From: Branchiostoma floridae
Lineage: Eukaryota; Chordata; Leptocardii; Amphioxiformes; Branchiostomatidae
Length of the DNA: 64,000 bases
Direction of reading: 5' to 3'
NCBI RefSeq assembly: GCF_000003815.2
Contig: NC_049985.1
Location: 1,515,410 to 1,579,409 of the forward strand
The notes below the pieces were generated by a model. That model did no database searches and was not told where the DNA came from. It worked only from the letters and a program-made list of their open reading frames with translations. Below are positions 6,205 to 42,159 of the stretch, one piece after another. Within the stretch, counting starts at the first letter, position 1. Every line of letters starts with the position of its first letter. The position numbers and the translations under genes were made by a program.

Positions 6205-9200
6205 TTAACTTTCCGGTACCAAATCAATCTTAGACGTAAGGTAGTCCGTCAGCTTTGGCATCAGGGCCCCGAATTTGGTGAAGGGCCACATGATGAAGGG
6301 ATAGTAGACCTCCCGGGCTCGTGTGGCGCCTCCTCGCACAATGGACATGGCGGTCTGGTCTACCGGCGTCACTATGTCCAGCAGCTCTGGGGTACTCTGG
6401 AACAAACATGAATGGATAGATGGATCGATGAATAAGCAAGTGAGTGGATGAATAAATGATCTGAGCAGAGCCTTTGAAGGGACAACATGGCCATCAACTA
6501 GTTTTCACAACACTCCTTTAGAGCATAGAAGTAGCCAAATGGGAGGTAACGTTATGGTTGGTCTCGGGGTTTACCGGTCATTCTAAGTCCATGGTTGCAA
6601 ATGGTTTATAGCTTAAAACTAAACCACCACTACGCAAAAGTTAGGTGTGACAGGTTGTTCAATGCAATATAAATAGCTGCTGCCGCGCCGCATGCCTGCG
6701 AAGCTGGTGTGTTACGCCGAAGAGCAGTTATATACCGGCTATACTGATACAGATACAGTAATCTGGAAAAAATATAGCGTGCTAACTCGTCAGGCAAATT
6801 GTTCACCTACTTTCATCTTACCTGTAAGTTTTGAACGACTTTCGGAGTCCCTATGTACCCCAGCACGGCGAGAGTGACGGACACGTCCTGCCCCGCCTTC
6901 ATCAGTTCCACACGGAGCGAGCTGAAGAACCCGTCCAGACCGAACTTGGCGGAGCTGTAGAAGCTCAGGTTGGGCCACGGTATTTTACCTACAGATAGAA
7001 CACATGGAATGAGTAGAACATTTAGAATAAATGGAGCACAAGGAATGAATAGAACATGTACCATAGAATGAATAGAACACATAGAATGAATAGAACACAA
7101 AGAATGAATAAAACACTTGGAATAAATAGATTTCATAGGATGCATAGAACGCATGGAATTAATAGAAACCATGTTCGTGGAATAGAAAGTATATAATGTT
7201 ATATAGAATAGAAAAATAAGTATCAGGAAAAACTTCTTTAAACACAGTGTTTCTCTGCTTGATTTTTTATTGACTGTCTATTTCGACATGCAAACACTAT
7301 ACTGACTGGTTCTGCTCCGCATCCCAGCTAGGTGTCGCTACCTTCATATCTATGTCAGATTTACTACGTATTTTCAAAAAGTTTGTTAACGCTATTCACT
7401 AGGCCTGACTAGGGTTAATAATGTTCACTCTCAGTAGAAATTAAGTTAATTTTTAGCAAAAGGCAGATGTGTACGTGCTCGTCAAATGTTTGCCACGTGC
7501 ATCTAAGGCAAGCGATAGATGAACAGAAACTAATTATATTTACCGAAACCAGAGTTCACCACCACGATATGTCCTTTACTCTCCTTCAGCAGAGGCAGGG
7601 CCAGGGAGGCCAGCCGGACGTAACTGACCAGGTTGATGTTCAAATAGTCTTCAAAGAAGTCCATATCCGGGTCCTGGTCCCAAGACTTGCCCTCGTGAAA
7701 TTTGTCTTCTAGAGATTTATAATTGGACCCAACGTGGTTCAGAACCAAGTAGTCCAGCCTCCCTGGAAAACATGTAGAACATTATTGTTGATGTTAATTC
7801 AATATTAGGTAGTATATCTTGCTTTTAGATACAAGTTTGAACATGTTTTGTTGCGACATAGCCCAATTTAGCAAAAATGTGTAGTAAAAAGGTCCAAGGA
7901 CCCTTACAATAATGTTAACTTTGAACATGGTAACAAAGTATGTATCCAACGTGTGAATTTTACCAGATTTATCACCCGATTTGTGATATTATGGTCTGGT
8001 AGATACAAGACAAATACACCCTAACACAATGCGCCAAACGTCCGAAACTTAATCTCCTTACCAAATTTCTCCTTAGCTGTTTGAATGGTTCTCTCACAGT
8101 CCTCCGCCTTCCCCATGTCCCCGGCCACGTAGTGCGCCTCCTGGGCTCCCAGAGACACAGCTTTCGCTACAACCTCAGGGGAAAAGATACATCGACTTAA
8201 GCTCACCAAGACAATTGTCCAAGGATTCGTACGTGTCTTCTACCAAATTTATTGTATTCCCATACTTTAATTGTCTTACATGTCGGTAACCACCAAACTT
8301 TTCAATCTCTAGCGCCAGTAATGATTCACCAGGCTACTGAATCTATAAAGATAGCTAAATCTCTGAAAAGATGGTCTCTCACTTCTTTTAGCCTGTTCTC
8401 CCTCCTGGCTGTGATGAGAATCTTTGCTCCCAGCCGGGCGTACTGGTACGCCATCTCTTCGCCGATGCCGGTACTGCAGCCCGTGATGACAACTGTTGCA
8501 CCGCGGACAGATTCTGTGGGACAATGCCAACCTTGTCATACGCCAAGCATTATTTCATATATACGGTAAACGCCGAAAAAGGAGCAACTACTCAAGCCCG
8601 AAATCAAGAAAGCTCGGAGTAGAGATTCCCTGCTATGTTTTTTTTAAAGACAAACTCGCGTGAGAATGTTTTGTTTCTTGTTGCTAGTTTCATGACTTTT
8701 AGGTACAAAGTTAAATCGATTAAACTTATTGGTGCCATTCGTATATGCACTGTAACTGTCAGAAGACGTAAAATCCAAATGAATACTTTTCAGTACAGTA
8801 TTTAGACAATCAAGGCTTGTACAAAAAACTGTCAATAGGAATGTGCGTAAACCATACTAGAGAAAGTAAACTTACACAACTAATATTTACACGTACCGAC
8901 GCCATCGTAGAGCCAGTAATACAGTATATCCTGACGACTACAGTACTAACTACCACCCAAAATATTAAGCAATATCTCACTTGTTCGAAATACTTCAATA
9001 CTTTGTCAAAGGCAGAAACACGAAGCATTGCTCGCAACACTATGGTCTTACATGAGGACACGCCCACATTACGTATACGAAGGTAAACAAAGGGTTACTC
9101 GGTCCGGGCAACTAAGACGGAACAAGAAGAGGTCTCTGTCATTTTTGCAAGGCACAATCACAATTTACGCAAGATTTGTTGTTGTACCCTTCTAAAGAGG

Positions 9201-9479
9201 CTATCACAGAATCAACCGTTGACAAGAATCTTTACGGCTATAATTTCCTACACTAAATAGAGGAGCGCTGTACGACACATCTACGACTGTCTCAAATATG
9301 CCCTTAATAAGGCTCTGTACTTAACCTGTCCACTGGTATATATGCTTGTGTAGGCCTCTAGCTATAGAGGGGAATCGCAAAACCGACTTACTGGGATCGA
9401 AGCCATCGTAGTTCCAGTAGATTCCGACGGCAACGGCACAGAGTAACACCAACAAACTGGCCCTCAGTAGAGCCGACAT
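6205..9479 (-). CDS. HSD11B1L: SDR gene A: 11-beta-hydroxysteroid dehydrogenase 1-like, six exons
   Basis: Exons read on the minus strand are 9479-9392, 8513-8383, 8173-8062, 7762-7544, 6988-6822 and 6396-6205. Together they give 302 aa with no stop and every junction GT/AG. Residues 1-20 form a hydrophobic signal anchor followed by IYWNYDGFDP, as in ER-anchored HSD11B1 proteins. The Rossmann motif TGCSTGIG is at 40-47. The catalytic tetrad is complete: N154 (INLVSY), S181, Y194 and K198 (YSSAK), with the same N-S and S-Y spacings as human HSD11B1. MAYQYARLGA, ALPLLK and FGLDGFFSS also match that subfamily. The expected role is NADP(H)-dependent interconversion of a keto and a hydroxy group on a steroid or similar lipid at the ER; the real substrate is unknown. 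Tandem neighbour of gene B. Confidence 0.85.
6990..7180. repeat. degenerate tandem repeat in SDR A intron 5
   Basis: Diverged units of roughly 16-20 bp built on TAGAACACATAGAATGAA, about nine copies. It lies immediately upstream of exon 5 on the coding strand. Confidence 0.7.
8890..8925 (-). pseudogene. possible relic of an SDR first exon in SDR A intron 1
   Basis: On the minus strand this reads YYWLYDGVG in one frame, close to the YWNYDGFDP end of SDR exon 1, with 18 of about 21 bases around GCCATCGTAG matching (plus-strand spelling). Upstream the frame is broken, so it could not supply a signal anchor. Confidence 0.35.
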
Positions 9480-10275: not shown

Positions 10276-10290
10276 TTAACTTTCCGGTAG
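10065..10290. repeat. 21-25 bp minisatellite running into the SDR B stop codon
   Basis: About nine diverged units of the form AAATCATTAACTTnCAGGTAAC. The unit closest to the gene is the terminal codons plus stop of SDR B itself (plus-strand TTAACTTTCCGGTA). The same repeat family follows SDR D at 35512-35800 and is present as a single unit after SDR A. Confidence 0.8.
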
Positions 10291-13200
10291 CATGTTAACC
10301 CTGACACCTATGTAGTCCACAAACTGCGGCACCAGCCCGGTGAGCTTGGCCATAATCCATGTGTAGAAGGGATAGTACACCTCCCGGGCGCGGGTCGCCC
10401 CTCCCCGGATAACCGCCTGGGCAGTCTCGCCGATCGGAGCGGCACCTTCCAGGGCTTTCTCACCGTCTGGCACATTCTGGAACAAAACAAAACAAGCAAG
10501 GTAACGCACCAGGGGGAGGGGAAAAATCGACCTTGACCTTCGCGCGAGTCTTCCAAACCTAGCCTGAGTACCATCAGGGAAGTACAGTAGAAGCCGCTTA
10601 ATGTCACACCCCATTTGCCAGTGCATTTCGTGCAATTATCCAGGTGGTGCAACAAAGCGAAGTTATTAAGCTGGAACGTACCACCATGGGATTTTGGGAT
10701 TTCGGGCAATTAACAGAAGTGTGTGATTATCCGTTGTGCAATTAACTGACTTCTACTGTAGTGTTAAAGTTAGCTTTAAAAAATTGTTTGCTTTAGTAGG
10801 TTATTAGCTCCTAAGGCTTACTTGCAACTTTTCCGATATTGTCGGTGTCGCGATGAAGCCCAGCACGGCGAGAGTGACGGACACGTCCTGCCTTGCCTTC
10901 ATCAGTTCCACACGGAGCGAGCTGAAGAACCCGTCCAGGCCGAACTTGGCGGAGCTGTAGAAGCTCAGGTTTGGCCAGTACATTTTACCTGCGAACAAGA
11001 CAGGAACACATCAAATTGTGATTTATCAAAATCCCTTACGTCTCAAGTTTTCATTTGATTTTCGTCCTCTTTCTTTCCAACGAATAAACGCTTTCCTTCC
11101 TCTTCCCCTTTCTCCATTTTCCTTCCTTCCTTCTTTCTTTCTTTTTTTCTTTCTTCGCTTTCTGTCTTTCTTTCCTTCCTGTCTGTCTTTCTTTCTTTTT
11201 TATTCATTTCTATCTCTATTTGACTTATCATCATCGAACAGCCTTTCGTTTGTTTTTCTTCCATTTATTTCTTACTTTCTTAATTTCTTTCTCTACGCTC
11301 TCCATAACTTCCTTTCTATTTTCTGTCCTCTCTTTTCCTTTCTCTCTCAATTCGCTCATTATCGTAATAGCAGCATGCACAATAAATAATGACAATACTA
11401 CGTCTGGTGTATCATTTGCAGCAAAGTACATGTAGGTACCCAATGTTTTGAATGAAATGAACAAAATGATGTTACCGAAACCAGAGGACACCACCACGAG
11501 ATGTCCGCTGCTCGCCTTCAGCAGAGGCAGGGCCAGGGAGGCCAGCCGGACGTAACTGACCAGGTTGATGTTAAGGAAATCCTCGAAGAAGTCCACATCC
11601 GGGTCCTGGTCCCAAGATTCTCCCTTGAAGAATTTGTCATGAAGAGGTCCGAAATTGGATCCAAGATGGTTCAGCACCAAATAGTCCAGTCGACCTGAAC
11701 GAAAGGTACAAATCAAGTATCAGCATACAGGAATGCATTTGAATGGAACGAGTTGCCTTCTACAGTACTGTAAGAATGGACACGTCTGGCTTATCCTTCA
11801 AGAAGCTACTGAAAAATCACTGCTGATCTTTGGCCGCCTGACCTCATTAGCTTTGATTCACGATATACGATTTTGATTGACGACCTGTTGTATGTATATT
11901 GTTATTTTCGGTTACATTGTTATATTATTTAGTTTTTCTTACTTCTTTGTTTATGTTATTCGCTTTATGTTATATACAGAGCACGCCTGTAAAGTAGTGT
12001 AAGCGCGCCTACCCTATAAAACGAAAACAGAAATAAACAAGAGTTCGGCGACCTCATACCTCCATGAAATATTTAGTGCTTTTGTAAATTTTATGCAAAT
12101 GACTTAGCCATTTACAAAATTTATGCATGGTGATGTTCATCATTGACTAACGTACACATGTCACAAGTATAAAATTCCCATCATTAGTCATTAAGGGGAT
12201 TTGCTATTTTTGTATATATTATGCAAATCAGTTACTCATTAGCATATTTGGTATCTGCTTATGTTTCACCTATCATAACTTACATGTGTTACATTTACTG
12301 AAATTCAGTTATTGAAAACAATGAAATTGTACAATTTCCTCATTAATTATGCAAATTAGGTCCTCATTTGCATAAAATATATATCATTATGAACATATTT
12401 GTCTAAGCTACCTGCATGCCAAAAATGATGGCAATCCGTCATTCCTTTCTATAGTTATCCTCTTTGGAGTGTCTTGACAAAAATGCCCCTGCAGTTCCAA
12501 AATTAAATGTAAGGGGGCTGAAACTTGCCCCACTTTGTCATGACGTTGAAAGCTATCTACCACCCAAATATCAAGACCATATCATGTCCAGTAAAAGAGA
12601 TACATTGAAAAAAACTGCTATGATAGAATATTCTCATTAATTATGCAAATGTATTCTAATTTTGCATGATTCGTATTTCATCTTATACAACATTGTCTGA
12701 GGTACCTACATACCAAAAATCATGAAAATCCGTTGTTCCCTTCTTGAGTTATCCACTTCAAAAGTTTTTGACAAAAATGCCCCTGCTATCCCAAACCTAG
12801 TCGCTAGGGGGCCCAAACTTATGTCACTTATTCCTGAGCAAAAGAGCTACCTAACACCCCAAAATCAGGACCATATGTTGTTCAGAACACGAGATAGCAA
12901 AACCGGAAGTTGCGCTGCAGTACCAAGGAAAGCCGCTAGGGGGGGCCAACATCTAATCACTTCCAGCTTTCATCACAACCCACCAACACACCAAGTATGA
13001 AACCAATCCACCCAGCCGTTCTTGAGTTATCTTGTTCACAGACAGACAGACAGACAGACAAACGCAGGGTAAAAAATAAATAGACATATTTCTACCTAAA
13101 GTAGATTTGAGTATATTATCTGACAAATAAATATGCATTCATTAGTGCGATTTTACTTTTAGATTATTGCAATAAAAAGAATGCAAAGCGCAAAGAAATA

Positions 13201-15061
13201 TTAAGATTTGGAGCACATCTTATTCCCTTACCGAATTTCTCCTCGGCTGTTTGAATGGTTCTCTCATAGTCTTACAAGATTCATCACCTAATTTGTGATT
13301 TTTTTTCAGTAATCCATGGTTTCTAGTAGATACTAGGCAAATGCAGCCGAAGACAATGTGCCAAACTTCTGAAACTTATTCCCTTACCGAATTTCTCCTT
13401 GGCTGTTTGAATGGTTCTCTCACAGTCCTCCGCCTTCCCCATGTCCCCGGCCACGTAGTGCGCCTCCTGGGCTCCCAGAGACACAGATTTCGCCACGACC
13501 TGGGAGAAAAGAGAGAAACACGGACTTTTAATCTCCTAGGTCGCCAAAACAATTTTCTCCTGTCTTATATCTGTCTTCTACCAACGTTATTGAAATAACA
13601 ACATACTAGTCAACAACCTGGGAGGTTGTGTGTCGGAACATTAGATGATAATTTTCCTAATATTACAAAAACCGGTGCCTTCTCTCGTCCTTCAGCCTGC
13701 TCTCCTTTAACCAAAACCAGGCCTATTTTCTCTATTTCTGTATAGACAAACTGAATTTGATCAAAACAGAGGAAAATATGTTCTCTCACCTCCTTCAGTC
13801 TGTCCTCCCTCCTGGCTGTGATGAGGATCTTTGCTCCCAGCCGGGCGTACTGGTACGCCATCTCTTCGCCGATACCGGTACTGCAGCCCGTGATGACGAC
13901 TGTGGCCCCCCGCAAAGATTCTGCTCGTTCAATTCAGATGTTAAAATTTTCCTTAAGCAGAGACGGTCACTGCTACACGTTTGATAATTAAGGGTTAATG
14001 ACCCGCCCCGATGTGTATATGGTGTCATAACGCCTGGTCCTTTGCTATAACCACAGAATAAAACCACCGAGTGAGCGAAGCAAACTTGCAAACTCCTGAA
14101 TGACGCATAGATCCCTTGGTACTATACGTGTGAATTCCTTTGTCGAATTTCTGAAAATTCACTTTTGTTCTTTGGTGCATACATTTGTAGGGAGATTACA
14201 GATTGCTGTCACACGACTAAGGATTAGCTGCCATAAACTTCATATTGAAACTGGAAGGCATACTCGCACCCCTCTGGAACAATGACTATGCAAATACTGT
14301 AATTTAGATAGAATAGAGGACGGACGCCATGTTGTAGTAGAGTGTAGATTGTATACCGTAGAGAGAAATGAACTGTATAAGGTTATACAAAACCAATTTC
14401 CTTATTTCATACACCTAAGTTCTGTAAAAAAATTCATATTTCTAATGCAAGTAGGCAACTAGACAAACCATCGATCATAAAACATATCAGCTCTTCTATC
14501 TCCACTATAACAGAAAAGCGAGGAGAAGTTGAATTTATCCAGCAATAGTCTCATTTTATATCTGTGAACTGTATCTTTTCAAGATGTCTTGTTGTGACCT
14601 GTACTTAGCCCGGTGTGGCAAAAATGTGCAATAAAGGTCTTCATTTATTTGAAACCAAAATATCCACAGAAAATATCAGAAACATTGCAGTCTTTGGCTG
14701 TTTAGAACAACAAAACTTATTATCAATGTTAACAGAATGAGCCATTCCCGCTTGCAATCTGTACTTATTCCCTCTGCTCTGGCATATGTTTCGCTTCTTT
14801 TGATTGGCCATATACCTTACTTTCTTGTCTGCATCATCGACACCGGTGCCGGTGTCGATTCATTCTGACCAATCAGAGGAGCGATACACATCGGCCTGGC
14901 CGAAATCTTTGTGTTACGGTGTCATAACCAACGTGGAACGGGGCCTTCTGATTGGTCCGTGGCGCCTGGCTATATGATAATTACTAGTAATTGTTATTGT
15001 TGCGTGGCCGATATGGCTTTCCAGGTTAGATAAATACGATTGATTGATTGATTGATTGGTC

Positions 15062-15092
<31 letters not shown>

Positions 15093-15713
15093 CGGTTGAT
15101 TGGTCGATCGATCGATTGATGATTGATTGATTGATCGGTCGATTGATTGATTGATTGATCGATTGATTGATCGATTGATTGATTGATTGGTCGATTGATT
15201 GATCGATTGATTGATTGATCGATTGATTGATTGATCGATTGATTGATTGATTGATCGATTGATTGATCGATTGATTGATCGATTGATTGATCGATTGATT
15301 GATTGATGGGGAAAAGATCGAGAGGCCGCGGCTCGCCGGCTGACTGACTGGCTTGCTTTCTCAGTCTCTGTATACCTTTTTCGTCGAACCGTAGCGAGCT
15401 ATTCTAATTTACCGTAGCGTAGCTACTATTTCTTTCGGATTTTTAAGGAATCATAAGGATTTTACGTCCTTCAATTTACCAGCTGTAGCATCCGACAAAA
15501 TGTTACTTAACCCCGGGCCACATACATAACACATTATGCAACTACATGTATGAAGATAAAGGGCTGGGGCCACACTGCGTCTGTTCAATGTTACACCTAC
15601 AGTATGGCAGATAGTCAATCTTTACCTGGATCGTAGGCATCGTAGTTCCAGTAGATCCCAAGGACTACAGCACAGATTAACGCCAACAAGCTGAACCACG
15701 AGAAACGCGACAT
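10276..15713 (-). CDS. HSD11B1L: SDR gene B: 11-beta-hydroxysteroid dehydrogenase 1-like, six exons
   Basis: Exons on the minus strand are 15713-15626, 13920-13790, 13499-13388, 11694-11476, 10988-10822 and 10476-10276, giving 305 aa with GT/AG borders and the same phases as gene A. It has a signal anchor (MSRFSWFSLLALICAVVLGIY), TGCSTGIG at 40-47, tetrad N154, S181, Y194 and K198, and a C-terminal exon beginning NVPDGEKALEG and ending NMLPES. The 5' flank, exon 1 and parts of several introns are almost the same as gene D, but on the opposite strand. Introns are large and filled with repeats: a LINE relic, a GATT microsatellite and an AT-rich interspersed element. Predicted to be an active ER-anchored oxidoreductase; substrate not inferable. 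Confidence 0.85.
12050..13075 (-). mobile_element. AT-rich interspersed repeat with GACA end, in SDR B intron 3
   Basis: Alternating blocks of ATGCAAAT/TTTGCATAATTA sequence and GACAAAAATGCCCCTGC text, ending in TTCTTGAGTTATCTTGTT plus (CAGA)n near 13040. The same text occurs at 27.65-28.55 kb in the other orientation and partly at 17.9-18.05 kb, so it is a dispersed family. There is no coding capacity, and the class is unknown. Confidence 0.6.
13218..13272 (-). pseudogene. partial second copy of SDR exon 3 in SDR B intron 3
   Basis: About 50 bp reproduce the 3' end of exon 3 (AGAGAACCATTCAAACAGCC...AAATTCG) with an intact GTAAGG donor. There is no 5' half or acceptor. The flanking 13140-13220 matches intron 3 of gene D (inverted), whereas the true exon is followed by sequence like intron 3 of gene A. 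Confidence 0.7.
14160..14660 (+). mobile_element. LINE (non-LTR retrotransposon) 3' relic in SDR B intron 1
   Basis: With small frame breaks it reads LRISCHKLHIETGRHTRTPLEQ, then IEDGRHVVVECRLYTVERNELY. This matches the RT C-terminal pattern R-H-L-IE-G-R...C..C..EDE.HF...C..Y...R found in many LINEs. It ends in GTGTGGCAAAAATGTGCAATAAAGGTCTT, a LINE-like 3' tail. It is 5'-truncated and dead. Confidence 0.65.
15038..15307. repeat. (GATT)n microsatellite in SDR B intron 1
   Basis: About 270 bp of GATT units with GATC/GGTC variants. Confidence 0.97.
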
Positions 15714-17117: not shown

Positions 17118-20100
17118 ATGTCTCGTCTAGCGTGGGTCAGTCTGGCGGTAGTGTTGGCTGCTGTGGGGACTGGGGTCTACTGGAGCTATGATGGCTTCGA
17201 TCCAGGTAAAAGTTAAACTACTACTGTAACAGTCTATATCTAGTCCAGGGCGTTATATTTTTTGGAGCAATAAAAAGTACAACGACGAAGTTCATACGGT
17301 CAAGTACAAAATCGAAATACATACAAAGTAAACCCTAACATTCTTATTGCTAAAGAATATAGGCTAAAATAAGTACGTAATCGACTAATGGTTTGTTGTT
17401 AGAAAAAAAAACGTTTGCAGCACAAAGGTCAAAGCTAAGGTTCTTGACAACGAGTGCCGGCTAAGCCATCTTAAGAATGCTGGAGATGTTAATTATATAA
17501 GACAACGGAACGACTAAGACCGCAAAAGTATTAAATCATTTAACCGCACATTTACGAATAACCACACCAATCACGCGTCAACATTCAGCAACTGTACACA
17601 TCCAGAAAGGCGACGTACTATTCTTTAGATGGGCAATATGGCACTTCTACTGAGTCAATCTATCACTGTCAAAATATATCCTTGATCTGGTTAAATATAG
17701 TTGGCAATGCTGCATGGCATGTAACACTATCTTAATCCCCTGCCTCATATGCACGGGACCTTCTCAGGATTTTGCTTCTGACCACTCCACACTAAAGCTC
17801 GACGCTGGGTTGGTAGTAGCGTAGCTATAGAACCCAGCCAATGCTAGCTCCGATTCGCCCCTCTGATCACAGCCAAGCAGGATATTGAGTTTCCCTTCAT
17901 ATGCTTCAAAATGTATAGTCAATATTTTAATCATTGGCGACCTGCTAACACGCCAAATATGGGGTCGTTCTTGAGTTATCTTGTTGACCAACAGACAGAC
18001 AGACAGACAGACACACTGACAAACGCTACTATACCTTCTGGTGAAGGTAGTGACTAAAGAAAATCATCTGAAGAGAAACTAACTCATGCCTTCCAGAGTC
18101 TCTGCGGGGGGCAACTGTCGTCATCACGGGCTGCAGTACCGGCATCGGCGAAGAGATGGCGTACCAGTACGCCCGGCTGGGAGCAAAGATACTCATCACA
18201 GCCAGAAGGGAGAACAGGCTGAAGGAGGTGGGGATGTTTTGTAATAAAATCAGTGATAAAAAATGAATATTCTTCTCATATGAAAGACCTGAATAGCCCC
18301 GTAGCAGCCACTTGTCTAATTGCGTAGTACTACTATTCTTAATCTTGTAGTCTTGTGAGATATGTACAGTGTCATTGATGTAAGACGGTTCGACTCAACT
18401 GTATGCTTCCCCAGGTTGTAGCGAAGGCTATGTCTCTGGGAGCCCAGGAGGCGCGCTACGTGGCCGGGGACATGGGGAAGGCGGAGGACTGTGAGAGAAC
18501 CATTCAAACAGCCAAGGAGAAATTCGGTTTGGTTTTACTTATCAAAATATCCGTTACTGATACATTATACGCTCAGTATTATTGGAATCTTCTTACATTG
18601 CTCACTGCCGATGGAATACTGCTTGCCGAATTACTTACATTTGCTACATTGCTTATCTTATTATTTACTCATAACTCCATTTTTTATTTATTTATTCATT
18701 CATTCATTCATTCTTGTCCATCTATTTATCTATTTATTTTATTACAATTTATTATTGATTTTATTTCAGAACGCCTTGACTATCTAGTCATCAACCACGA
18801 AGGGTCAAGTTTCAAAAACGTTGTGGACTACTACGGAAAGAAGTTTTGGGACGAAGACCCTGATATGGACTACCTGGTGGACTTCCTAAACATCAGTCTG
18901 ATCAGTTACGTCCGTCTGGCCTCGCTGGCCATGCCTCTGCTGAAGGATAATAAAGGACATATCGTGGTGCTGTCGGGTTTTCATGGTAAGCATCCGGTCG
19001 CACACGTTGTGGGCTTTTCGTACGATTGCAAACGTACGGCATTTTTGCGACAGTTGCAAGGTCATTTTTGCGACAGTTGCAAGGTATGTTGACAATTCAA
19101 GTATTCTAAGGCCGTCTTAGACCATTATCGGTGGCTAGCTCTGTCACAGTCTGCTTTAATATTTTGCGACACAAACAATCATACTACGACCTACGACCTG
19201 GCGACAATTGCTGTACGATGGGTCGTAGGTGTGTCTCCTGTGACGAAAAAAAAACGTTGTCGTAGAACCTTGGTGTGGGTCGGATCTGTCATTGTCTTGC
19301 CGAAAATCTTACCACAAAAAAAACACTCTTGGACTCGCCTTTAAGCAAGGCAGTCTTGTACTTTTACAGTCAATGAGACGAGCTGACGTCATGATTATTT
19401 CAGGTCAAAGTACCTCGTAGATCAAGATTAACTGTTGCTGACAACACAACACTGTCAACAGTTGTTATTCTCATGGTCACCTTTGCTCTAACCTGGGGGC
19501 CAGGCAGGATCGGGTAGCTAGCTATTTTTTTTCTACGGGGATCAAAGGCCCGCCGATCTCATATTAGCGGTCGGACTGCCTTTGGTCCTTGTAGAATAAA
19601 CTCGCTAGCTACCCGATCCTGTCTAGCTCCCAAGGTATTGCTCCTCCTTCGGACTTAAACTCCCCAGAGCGCTAATATGAGATCGGCGAGCTCGAGCTGA
19701 CTGTCTTAGGTCCCCGTAGAGTAAACTCGCTAGCCACCCGATCCTGTCTGGCCCCCAGGGTACCTTTGCTCGTTCTCCCTCACCTCTGTACATGTGTTTC
19801 TAGGAAAGACTCCATTTCCTACCTGTACCTGGGGCTCCACTGCCAAGTTTGGCCTGGACGGGTTCTTCAGCTCGCTCCGTGTGGAACTGGTGAAGGCGGG
19901 GCAGGACGTGTCTGTCACTCTCGCCGTGCTGGGCTTGATCAGGACACCCGCGGTGGAAGACTTGTTGCAGGTATATAGACAGTTCGTGTTATGCTAGGGC
20001 ATGGCGCTAGCCAGCCTCTAGGGTGTAATTCAGTTGGCCGGAGTACACCCTTTAAACAGTCTGGAATCAAGGCTAGTTTTCCGTCAATTAACGGAACGTC

Positions 20101-20525
20101 GCTGCGTGTGACGGAAAAAAATTAAAATCAATCCGACAACCTTGACGGACAAAAATCGTGGGTAAAGATTAAAAAAAACTGAATTTGAATTAACCAACAC
20201 CAACATCTCATAGAAAGAAATTTCGAGCTGGCTATAGCCCCGTTCTAGAGTCATGATATTCCCTAACCGGGGCCCGGTTACAAACAACAGTATACATAGA
20301 GTACATACAATCGTCACACATTTCTTGCAGAATACAGAGACGGGACGAGAGGCACTGAAGGCGGCGGCGCCCGTGGACGAGACAGCCCGGGCCATCCTCC
20401 GCGGCGGGGCGGTCAGAGCCCGCGAGGTCTACTTCCCGCCGTCCGTGTGTTGGATTATGATTAAACTCCGACCCATGGTTCCTACCTTCGTCGATAACCA
20501 TGGGTCAGCATGCTTCTTTCCGTGA
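17118..20525 (+). CDS. SDR gene C: 11-beta-HSD1-like pseudoenzyme, six exons
   Basis: Exons 17118-17205, 18097-18227, 18415-18526, 18770-18985, 19804-19970 and 20331-20525 give an uninterrupted 302-aa protein with the family's phases. The signal anchor (MSRLAWVSLAVVLAAVGTGVYW) and cofactor motif TGCSTGIG are kept. The catalytic tetrad is not: Asn is Ser153 (codon 18895-18897), Ser is Gly180 (18976-18978) and Tyr is Gly193 (19833-19835); only Lys197 remains. The donor of exon 3 is GTTTGG and that of exon 2 is GTGGGG, both weak. Intron 3 is 243 nt and stop-free in frame. It is predicted to bind nucleotide but not to catalyse. A young decaying gene is the alternative, although the open frame argues against long neutrality. 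Confidence 0.75.
17700..18055 (+). mobile_element. interspersed repeat with (CAGA)n tail in SDR C intron 1
   Basis: Shares TTCTTGAGTTATCTTGTT plus a (CAGA)n run and the phrase ACCTTCTGGTGAAGGTAGTG with the repeats in SDR B intron 3 and at 27.65 kb. The left border is uncertain. Confidence 0.5.
19489..19761. mobile_element. fold-back MITE with 10-bp flanking duplication, SDR C intron 4
   Basis: The terminal arms are CTGGGGGCCAGGCAGGATCG on the left and CGATCCTGTCTGGCCCCCAG-like on the right, about 30 bp each. A second inverted pair around CCGATCTCATATTAGC/GCTAATATGAGATCGG lies inside. The direct repeat ACCTTTGCTC flanks both sides (19479-19488 and 19762-19771), consistent with a target-site duplication of Mutator-like length. 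Confidence 0.7.
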
Positions 20526-22017: not shown

Positions 22018-24912
22018 CTATGGTTCACCGTCATGCTCATAGATCATACAACAAGCAGCAGCTGCTGTTTTCTCATCACCTGCCTCATAGATATCATGAG
22101 AAGCCTGAGACTCTGGTTTCCCATTGTCGTTCTTGTAAATAGAGTGAGGTGCAGATAATTCTGCTTTCTGGTCATCATTTCCGTAAATGATTTGAGAAGC
22201 CGGAGACTCTGTTTGCTCATTGTCAGTCTTGTAGATGGATTGAGATGCAGCAGACTGTGCTTTATCATCGTCATGGCCATAAATAACCTGAGCAGAAGCA
22301 TACAGCACTGTATCGTCTTTATTGGTATTCTCATAGGTGACATGAGAAGTATCATGTACTGTTTCCTTCACATGGGTGTTCTCATGGCTGGCATGAGAAG
22401 TACCAGCTGCTGCTTTCTCAGGACCGTCAGGACCAATGTAATGAGAGACAGCAGATTCTGCTTCTTTTTTAGGCATAGAAATGGGCTTCACATCCTCATA
22501 ACCAGACTCAACCTTCGCATACACTATGTTTACTAGTTCATGGACTGTCATTAGATTTTTGGCCGACAGTGCCTCTGGTGCACATGCCGATTCTTTGTTT
22601 GAACCTACAGCACCCCTAGCAGTGCTAGCGATGGTTTGGAGAGTTTCGGGGTCATCATACACATTCTCAGACATGTCGGCCTGTTTGCCTGTGGGGGGAT
22701 TGATTGTTGGTGCTGATATTACAGGGGACTTTTTCTTCCTTTGCGTCCACCAAAATGCAAAGGCAAGGCTAGAAATCATTATGACTCCGCCGAAGGTGCC
22801 AAGACCAATAGCAAGATGCAGAAGCAATGTTGGATTGACTTCTGAAAGTGGAGGTAAAGTTGACACCAAAGATAAAACATTGAGGGAATTAAATGTGGCA
22901 GTTTTGACATCAACAAACACTGTGCCAGACACCGAGCCGATAGTATTTGTTGCAATGCAAATGTACTGACCAGCATCTGCTGCAATAACATTAATTATGG
23001 TGATGGTACCATTCACTCCCACAGTCACTCTCCCACGTGACTCAGCACTTGCAATCAGTCCAGATGGGAGGGTGACAGTGACATTTGGAGGAGGTATTCC
23101 TGAAGCTTCACAGGCCAAATACAGGGTGCCTTCCTGTGTATTTTCGCTTATTTCAAACCGCACAATCGTTGGCCTTTTGAACATCATAACGTCAGACTGT
23201 ACAGCGCCAGTGGATACGCCTGACGTAACTTTTGTTTGGGTTTCTACCTCAACAAACAGTTTGTTGGAAATCGTTGGCTTTTGGAACATCTTGCCGTCAG
23301 ACTGTGCGACAGATGTCGAAGCCATGACGTCAGAGATCTCCACAAGGTCAGTGGATACTACTGGCATGACCGATGTTGGGGTTTCTACCTCAACAAACAG
23401 TGTCTCAGATGCAGAGCCACCTGGATTTGTTGCAGTACAGATGTACTGACCAGCATCTGCTGCAGTAACATCTCTTATAGTGATGGTACCATTCACCTCC
23501 ACAGTCACTCTCCCACTTGATTCAACAGTTGCAATCAGCTTAGATGGGAGGGTGACTGTGACTTCTGGCTTAGGTGTACTTGAAGCTTCACCAACCAAAC
23601 GGAGAGTTCCCCCCTGCACCAGTCTGTCGCCTTTGCTGTTTTGAAAACTTACAATCTTTGGTTTTTCACAGATTAGCTGGTCAAGGTTTACATACTCAAG
23701 TTGTTTCCCATGGAGGCCGCTTGGTGTTTGACAAACAATTTGGTTTTTGAATAGCTGCGCTTTCTTGACATTTGCCATTGCACAATCACAGTACCAGGGG
23801 TTTCCCTTCAGTGTCAACCGTATGAGCTTGGGCAAATGTGAGAATGTACCAGGATTAATGGCAGTTAGGCGGTTTCTCTCCAGATCTATATTTTGGAGCC
23901 TGGGTAGGTTTGAAAATACCCCAGGTTGAATGCGACTTATTTTATTAGCGTGCAGCCCCAAGTCATGGAGTTCAGGCAAATCTGAGATTGTGCCAGGTTT
24001 AATGTCAGATATTGTGTTATATTCTACATGCAGCGCGTTGAGCTTTGGTAGATTGGTGAATGTGCCTGGGTCAATCTTAGTTATCCGGTTTTGGGATAGC
24101 TTCAACATCCTAAGCTCTGGTAGATTTGTAAATGCACCTTGGTCAATGTTTGTTATCTGGTTGATGGATAGGTCCAACCACTCAAGCTTTGGTAGATTGG
24201 TGAATGTGCCTGGGTCAATCTTAGTTATCCGGTTTCGGGATAGGGGCAACATCCTAAGCTTTGGTAGATTTGTGAATGTACCTTGGTCAATGTTTGTTAT
24301 CTGGTTGCTGGATAGGCCCAACCACTCAAGCTTTGGTAGATTTGAGAATGTACCTGGGTTAATGTTTGTTATCTGGTTGATGGATAGGGCCAACCGGTCA
24401 AGCTTTGGTAGATTTGTGAATGTACCTGGGAGGATTTTAGTTAGTCTGTTGTTCTTCAGTTGCAAATGACAGAGCTCTGGTAGATTCGAAAATGTACGGG
24501 GGTCAATGTTAGTTATTTGGTTTTGATACAGCCACAATTTTCTAAGCTGAAATAGACCTGAAAATGTACGAGGCTGGAGGTAAGTTATCTTGTTAATTTG
24601 TAGGTACAATGTGTGAAGCTCCGTCAGATTAGAGAATGTCTGCTCATTTACTGTGGAAATCTGATTGTGGTGAAATTCTAACTCTCTCAACTTTGTGTAC
24701 TTTGAGACGTCAAACTGACCTAAGCTTGTGATGTAATTTGATCGCAGCTTAAGCTTAGTGATGGTTGCAGGTAGGTACTGAGGAACACTCGTGAGACTCT
24801 GGAACTCACATTCACAGTCAGACGGACAGCTGCTGCTGCAGGCTGCGGTCGGCCCGGCTTCCTTCAACACGATGAGCAGGAGAACCAGGAGAGCCTTCCG
24901 CTTGTTTGCCAT
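22018..24912 (-). CDS. LRRIG1: LRR-Ig transmembrane receptor, 964 aa
   Basis: A single coding exon, preceded by an acceptor-like TATAG just before GAAATG, so a non-coding 5' exon is likely. Signal peptide 1-24; LRRNT about 25-38 (CSSSCPSDCEC); roughly 13 LRRs of 24 residues at 49-372, several nearly identical (PGTFTNLPKLxxLxLSxNxIT); LRRCT 371-416 (NPWYCDC). Ig1 spans about 418-510 and Ig2 581-668 (C601-C652). The membrane helix is 698-722, then a basic stop and a 240-residue tail with 12 tyrosines. In Ig1 the first disulphide Cys is Gly441 while C492 remains. The tail has an ITIM-like IVYAKV (796-801) and YxN motifs at Y860, Y910 and Y925. An immune or adhesion receptor signalling through phosphotyrosine is inferred; the ligand is unknown. 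Confidence 0.88.
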   Translation of the reverse strand: MANKRKALLVLLLIVLKEAGPTAACSSSCPSDCECEFQSLTSVPQYLPATITKLKLRSNYITSLGQFDVSKYTKLRELEFHHNQISTVNEQTFSNLTELHTLYLQINKITYLQPRTFSGLFQLRKLWLYQNQITNIDPRTFSNLPELCHLQLKNNRLTKILPGTFTNLPKLDRLALSINQITNINPGTFSNLPKLEWLGLSSNQITNIDQGTFTNLPKLRMLPLSRNRITKIDPGTFTNLPKLEWLDLSINQITNIDQGAFTNLPELRMLKLSQNRITKIDPGTFTNLPKLNALHVEYNTISDIKPGTISDLPELHDLGLHANKISRIQPGVFSNLPRLQNIDLERNRLTAINPGTFSHLPKLIRLTLKGNPWYCDCAMANVKKAQLFKNQIVCQTPSGLHGKQLEYVNLDQLICEKPKIVSFQNSKGDRLVQGGTLRLVGEASSTPKPEVTVTLPSKLIATVESSGRVTVEVNGTITIRDVTAADAGQYICTATNPGGSASETLFVEVETPTSVMPVVSTDLVEISDVMASTSVAQSDGKMFQKPTISNKLFVEVETQTKVTSGVSTGAVQSDVMMFKRPTIVRFEISENTQEGTLYLACEASGIPPPNVTVTLPSGLIASAESRGRVTVGVNGTITIINVIAADAGQYICIATNTIGSVSGTVFVDVKTATFNSLNVLSLVSTLPPLSEVNPTLLLHLAIGLGTFGGVIMISSLAFAFWWTQRKKKSPVISAPTINPPTGKQADMSENVYDDPETLQTIASTARGAVGSNKESACAPEALSAKNLMTVHELVNIVYAKVESGYEDVKPISMPKKEAESAVSHYIGPDGPEKAAAGTSHASHENTHVKETVHDTSHVTYENTNKDDTVLYASAQVIYGHDDDKAQSAASQSIYKTDNEQTESPASQIIYGNDDQKAELSAPHSIYKNDNGKPESQASHDIYEAGDEKTAAAACCMIYEHDGEP

Positions 24913-25376
24913 TTCCTATATATCAACATGGGTTACACAGTAATACATCTGGGGATAAGTTTATCCTTACAACGGTGGGCAAATTGGAGCAACTCCATAA
25001 CTTACACAGTTTAAAAGATTGTATGATCAGGACTAATGGACTCTGATTGCATATGATAATGGTCTGAAATGTAATCCGTCATGTCTTTTTCTGTTCACAT
25101 TGGTATGCAAATTCCCATTACTTATTTAATTCATTCATGATTTGGAGTTATATTAGGATTAACGTTGTACAATTGATTTGCCTTATTTTGTCATACATGT
25201 AGTTAAATTGCGTTATTATTTGTCGATTCTTGCTGTGTTACCATTTATTTGATTTTATATTGTCATCGATTATTGCTATGTATGTACGGGGTTTCCCCCC
25301 AGGGATCTTTGAAAAACGCCAGCCAGGCGACATGTATACCCTGGATAAATAGAATAAACAAACAAACAAACATGTA

Positions 25377-32344: not shown

Positions 32345-35300
32345 ATGTCGCGTTTCTCGTGGTTCAGCTTGTTGGCGTTAATCTGTGCTGTAGTCCTTGG
32401 GATCTACTGGAACTACGATGGCTTCGATCCAGGTAAATTTTGTGTGTCTGCCATAGGTGTAGTATTGACGGGACGCAGTGTGGCCACCGCACTTAATAGC
32501 TGCACAATGTGTTATGTATGCGGCCCGGGGTTAAGTAACATTCAGTCGGATGCTACAGCTGGTAACTATATCTGTTCACAGAGAGCAGAACGCATGTGTG
32601 GCAACAGGAACTAGTATGACACAGGTAAAAGAAAACAAAACCTGTTGGATTTTGTTTATATGCAACTCGAAACAGTAGTCGAGACAAGGACTGTTTTCTT
32701 TACCTTATCTCTATGAGAAGACTTGTTGGAGGACGTAAAATCCGATTCGCGATAGGAATACTTTGTGAATAGCATTTCACGGATAAATTCAGGAGAGTTA
32801 ACAACACAAATTTAAGCACCTAGTAAGCTTTAACAAATAATTTACCCACGACGTTTAAGGTTGAAATAGAGCGGACCGGTTACGGTCGATTAGAATAACT
32901 CGGCACAGAATACACAAAGAGTAAGGTCAGTCAGCCGGCGAATCGGCCTCTCTTTCTCATAAAACAATTAACAATAACAACTAATTAACAAACGAGTAGC
33001 AATGACCGTCTCTGCTTAAGGATAATTTAAACATCTGAAATTCAACTTACAGAGTCTCTGCGGGGGGCAACTGTCGTCATCACTGGCTGCAGTACCGGTA
33101 TCGGCGAAGAGATGGCGTACCAGTACGCCCGGCTGGGAGCAAAGATCCTCATCACAGCCAGGAGGGAGAACAGGCTGAAGGAGGTGGGGAGGATTCATAA
33201 TGAAATTAGTGACAAAAAATTATGATTCCGTCTTCTCAAGAGGGTTTTTCCCCAGAACGATCGTAGAGTGGAATTTGTTATCACCAAGCACAATGGGGGC
33301 ATCTTCTCTGGATTGTTTTGTAGATATACGTGCAAAGGTTAGGTTATACCATTCTAAGGGTGATTATACCGGCTAGATACAGATACAGACATTAAATACC
33401 TGTATAGCTCCGAAGCATTCACTTGGCTAATTACGTAGTCTTATTCTTGATGCAATACTGTATGCTTCCTTCAGGTGGTAGCGAAGGCTGTGTCTCTGGG
33501 AGCCCAGGAGGCGCACTACGTGGCCGGGGACATGGGGAAGGCGGAGGACTGTGAGAGAACCATTCAAACAGCCAAGGAGAAATTCGGTAGGGGAATAAGA
33601 TGTGCTTCAAATCTTAAGACTATTTCTTTGCGCTTTGTATTCTTTTCTTTCCAATAATCTAAAAGTAAAACCCGACTATTGGGTGCACATTGCATCATTT
33701 GTAAGATAATATACTCAAATACACTTTATCCGGGATCATATCTATTTAATATCTATTTCTATTGTTTATTACTTATCTATTATTTGTTTTCGTTTTATTG
33801 GCGTGCTCCGTACAGAATAATATAAACGGAATAATATGAATAAAGAAGTAAGAAAAACTAAGCAATGAACAAAATGTGGCAGGCCGGGTGAAGAGGTCAG
33901 AGATCAGCAGTCATGTTTTAGTGGGTTCTTAAAAGATACGCCAGGGGTGTCTACGCTAACAGTACTGTAGAAGGCAACTCGTTCCATACAAATATACCCA
34001 TGTACGCCGACATTTGAACTGTACATTTCGTTAAGGTCGGCTGGACTATCTGGTGCTGAACCATCTTGGGTCAAACTTCGGGTCTTTTCAAGACAAATTC
34101 TTCAATGGGAAGTCTTGGGACCAGGACCCGGATGTGGACTTCTTCGAGGACTTCTTAAACATCAACCTGATCAGTTACGTGCGGCTGGCCTCCCTGGCCC
34201 TGCCTCTGCTGAAGGCGAGCAGCGGACATCTCGTGGTGGTGTCCTCTGGTTTCGGTAAAATCATTCTGTTCGTTTGTTGTGCATGATGATAAGATAGTGA
34301 TAGAGAGAGAAAGAAAGAAAGAGACAGAAAGGGAGAGCGAAAGACGAAGCCAGAGAAAGAGTAAGAAAGAAAAGAAAAAAAGAAAGAAAAATATCTGAGA
34401 TGATAAATCAAGTCATTGGGTTGACAGAAAGAGATGAAAAAGAAAAAAGAGAAGAGAAAGTGAGAGAATGAAATGAAGGAGTAAGAGAGAAATGAAAGAA
34501 AAATTAAAAAAAGAATGAAAGAAAAAGAGCAAGGAAAGAAGGAAAGAAAAAGAAGAAAAAAGGAAAGAAGGGAAGAAAAAGAGAGAAAAAGAAAAAAAGA
34601 GAAAGGAAAGAAATGAAGAAAGTAAGAATAAAAGAAATGGAAAGAAAGAAGAAAGAAAGAAAACAGAATGGAGGAAAGAGAGGAGAAGGGAAAGAAAGAA
34701 GATGTTTGATGATTTTTACTTGATTGTGTACGTTTCTATGTTGTTTGCAGGTAAGATGTACTTTCCAAACGTGAGCTTCTACTGCTCTGCCAAGTTCGGC
34801 CTGGACGGGTTCTTCAGCTCGCTCCGTGTGGAACTGATGAAGGCAGGGCAGGACGTGTCCGTCACTCTCGCCGTGCTGGGGTTCATCGCGACACCGAAAA
34901 TGGCGGAAAAGTTGCAGGTAAGCCAATGGTTAGGAGCCTTCACAGCCTTCCGTTGTTCTTTTTACCTCCATACAAATTGAGGTATTGTTGCGTCTGTCTC
35001 TGTTTGTATGTGTGTTCGTCTTTCCGGCTATTTGTAGTCAGCATAACGTTTGACCTTTAGATGGATTGTGACAATATTTCAGTATGTGGATATGGGTTTG
35101 GAATAGCCTGGGTACCATCCGGAAAGTAGTTCGCTCCGGCGTTTATTATACACTACTGTCGCTTCTCTGCTGTTCTGTCGGGTAGCAGAAGCGAACATTG
35201 GAGTGAACTACTACCCGGATGGTACTCAGGCTAGGTTTGAAAGACGCTCAAGGTCGATTTCGGGCCCCCCTGTTGCGTGACCTTAGCTTGCTTGTTTGGT

Positions 35301-35511
35301 TTTATTCCAGGATGTACCAGACGGTGAGAAAGCACTGGAAGGTGCCGCTCCCATCGGCGAGACTGCCCAGGCCGTTATACGGGGAGGGGCGACCCGCGCC
35401 CGGGAGGTCTACTATCCCTTCTACACCTGGGTTATGGCTAAACTCCCCGGGCTTGTGCCGCAATTCGTGGACTACATAGGTGTCAGGGTTAATATGCTAC
35501 CGGAAAGTTAA
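32345..35511 (+). CDS. HSD11B1L: SDR gene D: 11-beta-hydroxysteroid dehydrogenase 1-like, six exons
   Basis: Exons 32345-32432, 33053-33183, 33475-33586, 34036-34254, 34751-34917 and 35311-35511 give 305 aa in one frame. The first 28 residues are nearly identical to SDR B. The cofactor motif TGCSTGIG is kept, and the tetrad N154, S181, Y194 and K198 is complete (FYCSAK at the Tyr/Lys motif). The exon 4 acceptor is TTAAG where gene B has TTCAG, a weaker site. Intron 4 is a long purine-rich (GA/GAAA) tract, as in gene B. The gene lies alone among LRR-Ig genes, opposite to gene B, and breaks an LRRIG unit whose 3' end is stranded at 31.2 kb. Predicted active ER-anchored oxidoreductase; substrate unknown. 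Confidence 0.85.
34285..34705. repeat. purine-rich (GAAA/GAGA) tract in SDR D intron 4
   Basis: About 420 bp of nearly pure purine on the plus strand. The equivalent intron of SDR B (11040-11350) is pyrimidine-rich on the plus strand, i.e. purine-rich in the sense direction. Confidence 0.9.
35104..35233. mobile_element. 130-bp MITE in SDR D intron 5
   Basis: The ends TAGCCTGGGTACCATCCGG and CCGGATGGTACTCAGGCTA are inverted with one mismatch. The flanks GGTTTGGA and GGTTTGAA resemble an 8-bp target duplication. SDR B intron 5 keeps one end only (CCTAGCCTGAGTACCATC near 10557). Confidence 0.7.
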
Positions 35512-35800
35512 TGATTTAGTAACTTGTAAGTTAACGATTTTGTTACTTGTAAGTCAATGATTCTGTTACAAAGGTCTACTATCCCTTCTACACCTGGGTT
35601 ATGGCCAAACTCACCGTGTTAGTGCCGCGGGTCGTGGACTACATTGGTGTCAGGGTTAACATGCTACCGGAAAGTTAATTATTTAGTTACTGTTATGTTA
35701 ACGATTTAGTTACTGGTAAGTTAATGGTTTGGTTACCAGGAAGTTAATGATTTAGTTACCTAGCAGTTAATAAATCAGTTACATATAAGTTAATGATTTG
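35512..35800 (+). repeat. minisatellite and duplicated terminal exon after SDR D
   Basis: The stop codon is followed by 20-24 bp units (AAGTTAATGATTTAGTTAC type). Between them, at 35572-35678, sits a 107-bp second copy of the last 35 codons of exon 6, reading VYYPFYTWVMAKLTVLVPRVVDYIG and ending MLPES with its own stop. It has no acceptor. Confidence 0.85.
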
Positions 35801-39600: not shown

Positions 39601-42159
39601 TTAGTCTTCATCATTATTCTCATAGATCAAACAAGAAGCAGTACTACCAGTAGTTGCTGTTTTCTCATCACCAGCCTCATAGATATCACGAGAAGCCCGA
39701 GACTCTGGTTTCTCATCATCATTCTTGTAAATAGAGTCAGATGCAAATGATTCTGCTTTCTGGTTGTCATTTCCGTAAATGATTTGAGAAGCCGGAGACT
39801 CTGGTTTCTCACTCTCATTGTTGTAAATAGCGTGAGGTGAAGAGGATTCTGCTTTCTGGACATCATTTCCGTGAATGCTAACCGGAGACTCTGTTTTGTC
39901 TCTATCAGTCTTGTAGATGGGTTGAGATGCAGCAGACTGTGCTTTATCATCTTCATGGCCATAAATAACCTGAGCAGAGGCATAAAGTACTGCTTCATCC
40001 TCATCGACATTCTCATTAGTGACATGAGAGGCATCATGTACTGTTTCCTGCACGTGGGTGTTCTCATAGCTAGCATGAGAAGTAGCAGCTTCTGCTTCTT
40101 TTTTAGGCATAGAAACGGGCTTTATATCCTCACTACCAGACCCATCTTTCCCATACACGATATTTACTAGCTCATGGACTTTCATTGGCTTCTGGGCCGA
40201 CACAGATTCTTCCTTTGAAACTACATCACTTCTAAGAGAACCAGCAATGGCTAGGAGAGATTCGGGGTCCTCATATGCGTTCTCAGGCATGCCGGCCTGT
40301 TCGTTTGCACTTGCAGCACTGTTGGTTATCTCTGGGTTTAAAGATCTACCCTGACCTCTTGTTCTATAGGTGGAATTGTTCACCATGTCGTCTGTAACGA
40401 GGGAATCATTATTCAGAGCTATCGGGGCCTTTTTCTTTCCCCGGGGACCCTTCAACCGCAATTTAAGGCCAAGACCAAAAACCAGCAATACTGCACCAGC
40501 TGTACCAAAACCAACCGCAAATTCCAGAGGAAAAATTGTTGACTTGCCTTCTGAATTGCCTGAGGGAGATGATGCTGGTACTAGAGGCGAAGCACTGAAA
40601 GGGGGCGAAACAGACGCAGCACCAATAAACACTGTACGAGACGCAGAGCCGACAGTATTTGTTGCAATGCAGATGTACAGACCAGCATCTGCTGCAGTAA
40701 CATTAGTTACGGTGATGGTACCATTCACTCCCACAGTCACTCTCACACCTGACTCAGCGCTTGCAATCAGTCCAGATGGGAGAGTGACAATGATATTTGG
40801 AGCAGGTTTTCCTGAAGCTTCACAGACCAAATACAGAGTCTCTCCTTGTGCTAGTGTATCATTGCTTACCTTAAACCTCACAATCGTTGGGGTTTTCAAC
40901 ATAGTGCCCTCTGACTGTACAGCGCTGGTGGATACAACTGGCATGACTGATGTTGGGGTGCGTACCTCAACAAACAGTGTCTCAGATGAACAGCCACCAG
41001 GATTTATTGCCGTACAGATATACTGACCAGCATCTGATGCAGTGACATCTCTTATAGTGATAGTACCATTCACCTCCACAGTCACTCTCCCTTCTGACTC
41101 AACAGTAACATTCTGTTCAGATGGGAGGGTGACTGTAATGTCTGGTGTAGGGATACCTGAAGCTTCACAGACCAAATAGAGAGTTCCCCCTCGCACCAGT
41201 GTACCACTCTTATTGTTGACAAACCTCACAATCTTTGGTTCTTTACAGATAAGATCTTCTGAGTTGATATCATCAAGACTTTTCATACGGAGGTTACTAG
41301 GTTCTTGACAAACAATTTTGTTATATTCCCGAAATGCCATCGAAGGTGTGAATTTCCTATTGTACAAATAAAGGGCTGTCATTCTACAGTCACAGTGCCA
41401 GGGGTTTTCCGGTAGTGCAATGTACATCTCACGCTTGGGTAAATTTGAGATTATATCAGGGTGAATGCTAGTCAGAAGATTTTGATGCAGGTCCAGGCGG
41501 ATGAGCTTGGGTAGGTTTGCAAATGCCCCAGGTTGAATGCAACGTATTTGATTAGAATGCAGCCCCAAACGAGTGAGTTGAGGTAAATCTGCGAATGTGC
41601 CACACTTAATGTCAGTTATTTTGTTTGTGTGTATCTGCAGATTGTCGAGCTTTGGTAGATTTGTGAATGTACCGGGGAGAATTTTAGTTAGTTTGTTGCA
41701 GCACAAATGCACATACCACAGCTCCGGTAGATTCGAGAATGTACCAGGTTCAATGCTAGTTATCTGGTTTTCCACTAACTGGAGCTCTCTAAGCTTAGAT
41801 AGACCTGAAAATGTTTGAGGCTGAATGTTAGTTAAATTGTTAAAAGTCAGGTGTAACTTTTGGAGCTCAGTCAGACTTGAGAATGTCTGCTCATTAACTA
41901 TTAAAATCTGATTGCGGTGAAAATCTAACTATCTCAACTTTGTGTACTTTGAGAAGTCAGACCTACTTAAGCTTGTGATGAGATTAGATCGCAGCTTAAG
42001 CTTAGTGATGGTTGCCGGCAGGTCCTGAGGAACACTGCTGAGACCCTTCCTCTCACAGTCACAGTCAGACCGACATCTGCTGCTGCAGGCTGCGGTCGGC
42101 CCGGCTTCCCTCAACACGATAAGCAGGAGAACCAGGAGAGTCTTCCGCTTGTTCGCCAT
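39601..42159 (-). pseudogene. LRRIG2: LRR-Ig receptor with one in-frame stop (codon 77)
   Basis: The frame 42159-39601 has 852 codons plus the stop and is intact except for TAG at 41929-41931, where LRRIG1 has GAG (KLREL). It has a signal peptide (MANKRKTLLVLLLIVLREAG), LRRNT, LRRs, LRRCT (NPWHCDC), two Ig domains with both Cys pairs present, a membrane helix (FAVGFGTAGAVLLVFGLGL) and a tail with repeated IYxND-type tyrosines. The missing residue is the only lesion, so it may be a recent null allele, a sequencing error or a readthrough candidate. A frame starting at the in-frame GTG at 41775 would lack the signal peptide. Upstream of the start the sequence ends in TATAG, like the acceptor in LRRIG1. 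Confidence 0.8.

Follow-up and report, generated by a model that had tools for sequence, protein, structure and literature searches.

SDRs are recognised by the motif YxxxK, and the known dead members of the family that persist are mostly single genes. HSDL1, which belongs to another SDR subfamily than the genes described here, carries a single Tyr-to-Phe change. This 'inactive' hydroxysteroid dehydrogenase-like protein 1 is a conserved SDR reported to be inactive (Meier et al. 2009), which makes it comparable to the genes described here, although those are multigene and have Tyr replaced by Gly, Ser or Glu together with loss of Ser. SDR paralogues are also reported to control each other by hetero-oligomerisation, as DHRS3 and RDH10 do, and the Y188A mutant of DHRS3, which has no catalytic activity, can bind RDH10 and activate it (PMC7022914); natural DHRS3, however, keeps its Tyr, and the gene at issue here, gene C, has no known interaction. 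Eugenol synthase is described as having the SDR fold, NADP(H) and Lys and as still catalysing without the catalytic Tyr (PMC1991597), but it is a plant SDR of the PIP family and thus of another SDR family than gene C. It was the sole clearly pertinent case among the matches listed for pseudo- or Tyr-less SDRs in open PMC full text, and no paper on the clade described below was found there by title or abstract start. MAT2B, considered as a precedent for a dead SDR, was rejected because the triad is reported to be kept (PMC3793261).

Gene C of Branchiostoma floridae resembles HSD11B1 in its N-terminal hydrophobic anchor, its cofactor motif and its Lys, and differs from it in lacking three tetrad residues (Asn, Ser and Tyr); enzymatic function is not expected. 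It lies in a 64,000-nucleotide stretch of contig C7 (the window, meaning that whole stretch) in an assembly of 513.4 Mb and 431 contigs.

Gene C and its paralogues in the window

Rebuilding gene C and its three paralogues, A, B and D, from the window sequence gave models of six exons each, with identical phases:

6205..9479, minus strand: paralogue A, six exons, Asn, Ser, Tyr and Lys kept
10276..15713, minus strand: paralogue B, six exons, Asn, Ser, Tyr and Lys kept
17118..17205, plus strand: exon 1 of C, start codon and N-terminal hydrophobic anchor
18097..18227, plus strand: exon 2 of C, cofactor-binding half with TGCSTGIG, a low-dS block
18415..18526, plus strand: exon 3 of C, remainder of the cofactor half
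18770..18985, plus strand: exon 4 of C, Asn to Ser (codon 18895-18897) and Ser to Gly (codon 18976-18978)
19804..19970, plus strand: exon 5 of C, Tyr to Gly (codon 19833-19835), Lys197 kept (19845-19847)
20331..20525, plus strand: exon 6 of C and stop, with an extra codon ahead of the conserved Trp that is common to g1, g3 and g4 (genes outside the window, listed below)
32345..35511, plus strand: paralogue D, six exons, Asn, Ser, Tyr and Lys kept; close to the Tyr-less genes in exons 2-3 and in the first part of intron 2

Gene C thus spans 17118-20525 on the plus strand, with GT/AG at all introns and a stop-free frame of 302 codons. In a MAFFT alignment of the four proteins the tetrad of A, B and D is N154, S181, Y194 and K198, and the corresponding positions of C are Ser153, Gly180, Gly193 and Lys197. 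Both this assignment and the retention of the TGCSTGIG site within a full-length frame had been proposed in an earlier, sequence-only reading of the locus, and the rebuilt model reproduces them. Gene C therefore lacks the Asn-Ser-Tyr-Lys tetrad with YxxxK that defines a classical catalytic SDR. Its hydrophobic anchor scores lower than those of A, B and D (best 17-residue Kyte-Doolittle mean 2.14 versus 2.44-2.48).

The loss of Tyr in C is the same under every alignment made, and the change from Asn to Ser is unambiguous. The loss of Ser depends on the alignment for the pair C and A, since gapped DNA alignments can match Ser to Ser; however, the sequence MSGIHGK of gene g2 pairs with LSGFHGK of C without gaps, which supports the change from Ser to Gly and led us to drop the idea that Ser is retained through a 3-nt deletion combined with a 3-nt insertion. 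We also considered whether the C-terminal tail of C is frameshifted relative to B and D, a possibility we dropped because the extra codon and the DN ahead of the variable tail are both also found in g1, g3 and g4.

C is an SDR by its match to Pfam PF00106 (adh_short), which scores 112.4 bits against a curated cut-off of 26.6 (E 2.5e-32), and its TGCSTGIG, in exon 2, fits the cofactor motif TGxxxGxG. Of the 348 PDB sequences matching C, the best 23, with E from 9e-46 to 1e-39, are all HSD11B1, and the next family follows at 3e-17; C and human HSD11B1 share 97 of 249 aligned residues. By these closest solved relatives, in a comparison that did not include HSD11B1L, C appears to belong to the HSD11B1 family by descent. 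Outside the low-dS blocks, C keeps 34 of the 44 positions shared by A, B, D and the human protein, and the 10 changes comprise the three catalytic residues and seven further ones, most of them mild; counted likewise against the other three proteins, A differs at 4 of 38 positions, B at 1 of 35 and D at 1 of 35. We attach no probability to the 10 of 44, because C was chosen for its catalytic residues.

Several other features of the neighbourhood were recorded. A 77-nt stretch occurs twice in intron 4 of C (19574-19650 and 19699-19775; 81% alike), short extra copies of the exon-3 tail and exon-2 tail lie within introns of B (13232-13271 and 13688-13708), and a weak exon-6-like fragment lies directly downstream of D (35571-35648, E 0.54). 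Four long open frames at 22018-24915, 39601-41928, 46689-49442 and 54556-57300 (minus strand) look receptor-like, with leucine-rich-repeat and immunoglobulin domains as judged by eye. No further paralogue was found on either side of the window, over 40 kb upstream and 20 kb downstream.

A clade of HSD11B1-like genes without the catalytic Tyr

A search of the genome with C gave 128 exon matches, and one with g3 gave 129 at almost identical places. From these we modelled 25 HSD11B1-like genes, the four in the window and 21 further ones, several of them partial since only pieces were fetched. Matches on C1 (2), C2 (1) and C3 at 30.08 Mb (1), and weak ones on C6 at 22.30 and 23.74 Mb, fall outside the models. 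Exon 5 is missing from the models of g9 and g16, and exon 4 from those of g11, g12 and g20. Exons of the 21 further genes were accepted only with AG, with GT or GC, and free of stops, which biases these models towards intact-looking genes. The loci referred to below are these:

C7:3.62-3.65 Mb: g1 to g4, Tyr-less
C7:21796928-21808831 (C7:21.8 Mb): g5, Tyr to Gly with a Tyr one residue upstream, and g6, Tyr to Met
C11:19502344-19507116: g7, Tyr-less
C18:3631291-3633620: g8, Tyr to His and Lys to Asn, with Ser and Asn kept, a separate type of active-site loss
C6:4889599-4920721: g10 to g12, whose exon 5 and exon 6 peptides are identical across the three genes, which points to a very recent or homogenised amplification
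C3:14668241-14669037: g14, a relative that keeps Tyr and has Gly in place of the catalytic Ser

Among the 23 genes with exon 5, Tyr is kept in 14 and absent in nine, namely C and g1 to g8. Ser is absent in seven of the nine Tyr-less genes versus one of 11 Tyr-keeping genes (20 genes with both exons; Fisher p 0.005, although the genes are not independent). Lys is lost solely in g8 among the 23, and Asn solely in C among the 22 genes with exon 4. The loss of catalytic residues is thus not peculiar to C: the Tyr and Ser losses are common to five other genes, and only the Asn loss is private among the genes with exon 4.

These five genes, g1, g2, g3, g4 and g7, form a clade with C that has a bootstrap of 97 in a tree of exons 4-6 and of 95 after removal of the active-site columns, so that C is placed in it both by motif and by a grouping independent of the motif. 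Branching within the clade is weakly supported. Genes g5 and g6 attach next to the clade with a bootstrap of 81 in the first tree, a placement that is not stable without the active-site columns, and because of this we count one loss for the six genes and set g5, g6 and g8 aside. In all six clade members the motif reads W-[G/S/E]-x-x-x-K, Ser is replaced by Gly or Ala, and Lys is kept; a Trp precedes the lost Tyr in each of them, at a position where the Tyr-keepers compared have Phe or Tyr. The models of five of the six contain neither a stop nor a missing splice site. In g7, the fastest branch of the clade, the start codon is absent at the expected place and AT stands for GT at the intron-3 donor, which indicates that part of the clade is decaying.

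Identity between the six genes and the Tyr-keepers A, B, D and g10 is distributed unevenly. It is 96% in exon 2 and 96% in exon 3, 94% in the SYVRLASLALPLLK helix and 83% in the Lys helix and following strand, and it falls to 61% in the first part of exon 4, 58% in exon 1, 47% in exon 6, 46% in the Ser segment after the first helix, 36% at the end of exon 5 and 30% just before Lys. This contrast between conserved and changed segments favours a folding, NADP(H)-binding and dimerising protein that would lack Tyr-based catalysis.

Homogenisation of the cofactor half and selection after the loss

The high identity of exons 2 and 3 counts for less than it seems to, because these exons have been homogenised between genes. 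Between C and D, dS is 0.13 in exon 2 and 0.04 in exon 3, versus 0.68 in exon 4 and 1.58 in exon 6. In the low-dS blocks, which were defined after the identities had been seen, synonymous differences are rarer for every pair that includes C (Fisher p <= 5e-6); among the other pairs the contrast is weaker in A-B (p 0.037) and A-D (p 0.01), and B-D shows none (p 0.2). Informative sites in exons 1, 4 and 6 group AC|BD over AB|CD by 39 to 5, versus 3 to 1 in exons 2 and 3, and across clusters dS is 0.04-0.62 for exons 2 and 3 together versus 0.13-1.87 for exon 4.

We considered that the cofactor half of C had been recopied recently from D and would be uninformative about C, but intron and exon matches to paralogues outside the window weaken this idea. 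Stretches of 26-53 nt in intron 2 of C match g1, g3 and g4 at 72-85%, and intron 2 of D begins with sequence that resembles C (78% over 45 nt) as well as g4 (91% over 23 nt). Within the 243 nt of exons 2-3, D has 4 differences from g2, 7 from C and 11 from its sister B. The direction suggested as more likely is that a conversion tract passed from a Tyr-less gene to D, with D as recipient, although the stretches are short and tree support for D with g2 is 28.

Selection was assessed with branch-class codon models (our own GY94-type code, F3x4) on exons 4-6 and variants; g5 was left out of these, as its exon 6 was not modelled. Within the clade omega is 0.28 with g7 and, over two topologies and two exon sets, 0.33-0.36 without it; a value of 1 is rejected for the clade (p 1e-28 to 3e-15). 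Omega is 0.22-0.25 on the other branches (A, B, D, g6, g8 and g10), of which g6 and g8 are also Tyr-less. Relative to these, the clade is mildly relaxed when g7 is excluded (p 0.011-0.027) but not when it is included (p 0.16-0.20). Gene conversion and saturation could bias these multi-gene fits. For the C branch alone they give omega 0.31-0.41, with omega = 1 rejected at p 4e-5 to 0.0055.

Fits to the four window genes give omega for C of 0.25 outside the low-dS blocks (omega = 1 rejected, p 1.5e-6; profile interval covering the grid 0.16-0.40), 0.32 over the whole gene (p 5e-7), 0.33 in exon 4 (p 0.011), 0.12 in the low-dS blocks (p 0.003) and 0.07 in exon 6 (p 5e-4, with saturated branch lengths). 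These fits are not decisive, because the C branch may span periods on both sides of the loss, and because an open frame survives a short period of neutrality: in neutral simulations the chance of this was 0.54 after 0.1 substitutions per codon and 0.08 after 0.4. A dN/dS near 1, which the sequence-only reading had named, along with inactivating changes in other individuals, as fatal to its proposal, was seen in no fit, with C at 0.31-0.41 in the multi-gene set and 0.07-0.33 in the four-gene set and omega = 1 rejected in each. Gene C thus shows none of the marks of a pseudogene (stops, frameshifts or dN/dS near 1), with a weak splice donor, described below, as a caveat. Taken together, the codon fits, and chiefly the omega of the clade, suggest that the Tyr-less proteins are probably in use and that plain decay of C and of g1-g4 is unlikely. 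The proposal that C is a pseudoenzyme rather than a decaying copy accordingly gains from purifying selection and from the Tyr and Ser losses common to five other genes, but the open frame on which it had leaned is by itself compatible with a recent neutral period. The roles it put forward for C (dimer partner, NADP(H) sensor or chaperone) are candidates.

Readings of the clade

The reading we lean towards, with modest confidence, is that selection maintains the clade for membrane-anchored proteins with an NADP(H) fold that lack classical SDR catalysis and perhaps act through dimerisation or cofactor binding. Tyr (to Gly, Ser or Glu, behind the invariant Trp) and Ser (to Gly or Ala) would have been lost, most simply once, in the ancestor of the clade, and the duplicated HSD11B1-like genes keep Lys, the cofactor-binding half and two helices. 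In classical SDRs these two helices build the dimer interface. We infer that the clade proteins would be unable to perform the usual Tyr-mediated proton transfer and would be pseudoenzymes with respect to classical SDR chemistry; C may have lost all catalysis, with Lys and the cofactor half remaining. The least certain step is that the proteins were kept as membrane-anchored NADP(H)-fold partners, dimerising with themselves or with Tyr-keeping paralogues, whose stability or activity such a partner would tune; the kept helices fit self-dimers and heterodimers equally. Counting against a selected clade are the weak donor of C, the lesions of g7, the Asn loss private to C and the mild relaxation.

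Three features in and next to intron 3 bear on the product of C:

18490: cryptic in-frame GT in exon 3, present in all four window genes
18527..18532, plus strand: intron-3 donor of C, GTTTGG (TCG|GTTTGG), the weakest of 20 donors in A, B, C and D
18527..18769, plus strand: intron 3 of C, 243 nt with no in-frame stop, so that retention would add 81 residues in frame

The rank of the donor is the same under a leave-one-out matrix and under consensus weights. The open intron need not be a designed feature, as chance suffices to explain it (628 of 20000 Markov simulations were open, and 1 of 20 introns is stop-free). With the cryptic GT and the open intron, the product of C could differ from the model. 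That the true transcript departs from it, by retention of intron 3, use of the donor at 18490 or other exons that restore Tyr and Ser, nevertheless seems to us very improbable: neither residue is restored by any of the alternatives, searches of the introns of C with its own exons or protein found no second exon 4 or 5, and the Tyr-less exon type recurs at separate loci in g1-g4. The weak donor can also be taken, together with the lost residues, as an early lesion in an ordinary duplicate that is decaying and has yet to acquire a stop. The private loss of Asn, the lesions of the sister g7 and the survival of open frames under short neutrality fit such decay, which we hold to be improbable all the same, given that the Tyr and Ser losses are common to g1-g4, that omega since the loss lies well under 1 both for the clade and for the C branch, and that C keeps most conserved positions with largely mild changes at the non-catalytic remainder.

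Retention of Lys in all six members along with the cofactor half is also what would be expected if the clade were still enzymatic and performed another chemistry through Lys. Eugenol synthase is reported to need Lys and to catalyse without the SDR Tyr (PMC1991597), and the clade may accordingly retain some chemistry. The active site, however, offers no invariant new acid or base, the Tyr position being Gly, Ser or Glu and the Ser position Gly or Ala, and we regard Lys-based chemistry as unlikely. A possible but rather unlikely extension of the selected-clade reading is a lineage-expanded regulatory SDR arm, in which Tyr-less, Ser-less and Lys-keeping proteins would heterodimerise with Tyr-keepers and gene conversion would maintain a shared cofactor half in the two groups, one tract having probably passed from a Tyr-less gene to the active D.

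The finding thus widens from one odd gene to what appears to be a selected Tyr-less HSD11B1-like clade. In studies of steroids in invertebrate chordates, YxxxK should be checked before such genes are named 11beta-HSD. With six genes and measurable purifying selection after the loss, the clade would be a clean system for the retention of SDRs without classical catalysis, for which cofactor sensing, control of partner SDRs or Lys-based chemistry are possible reasons.
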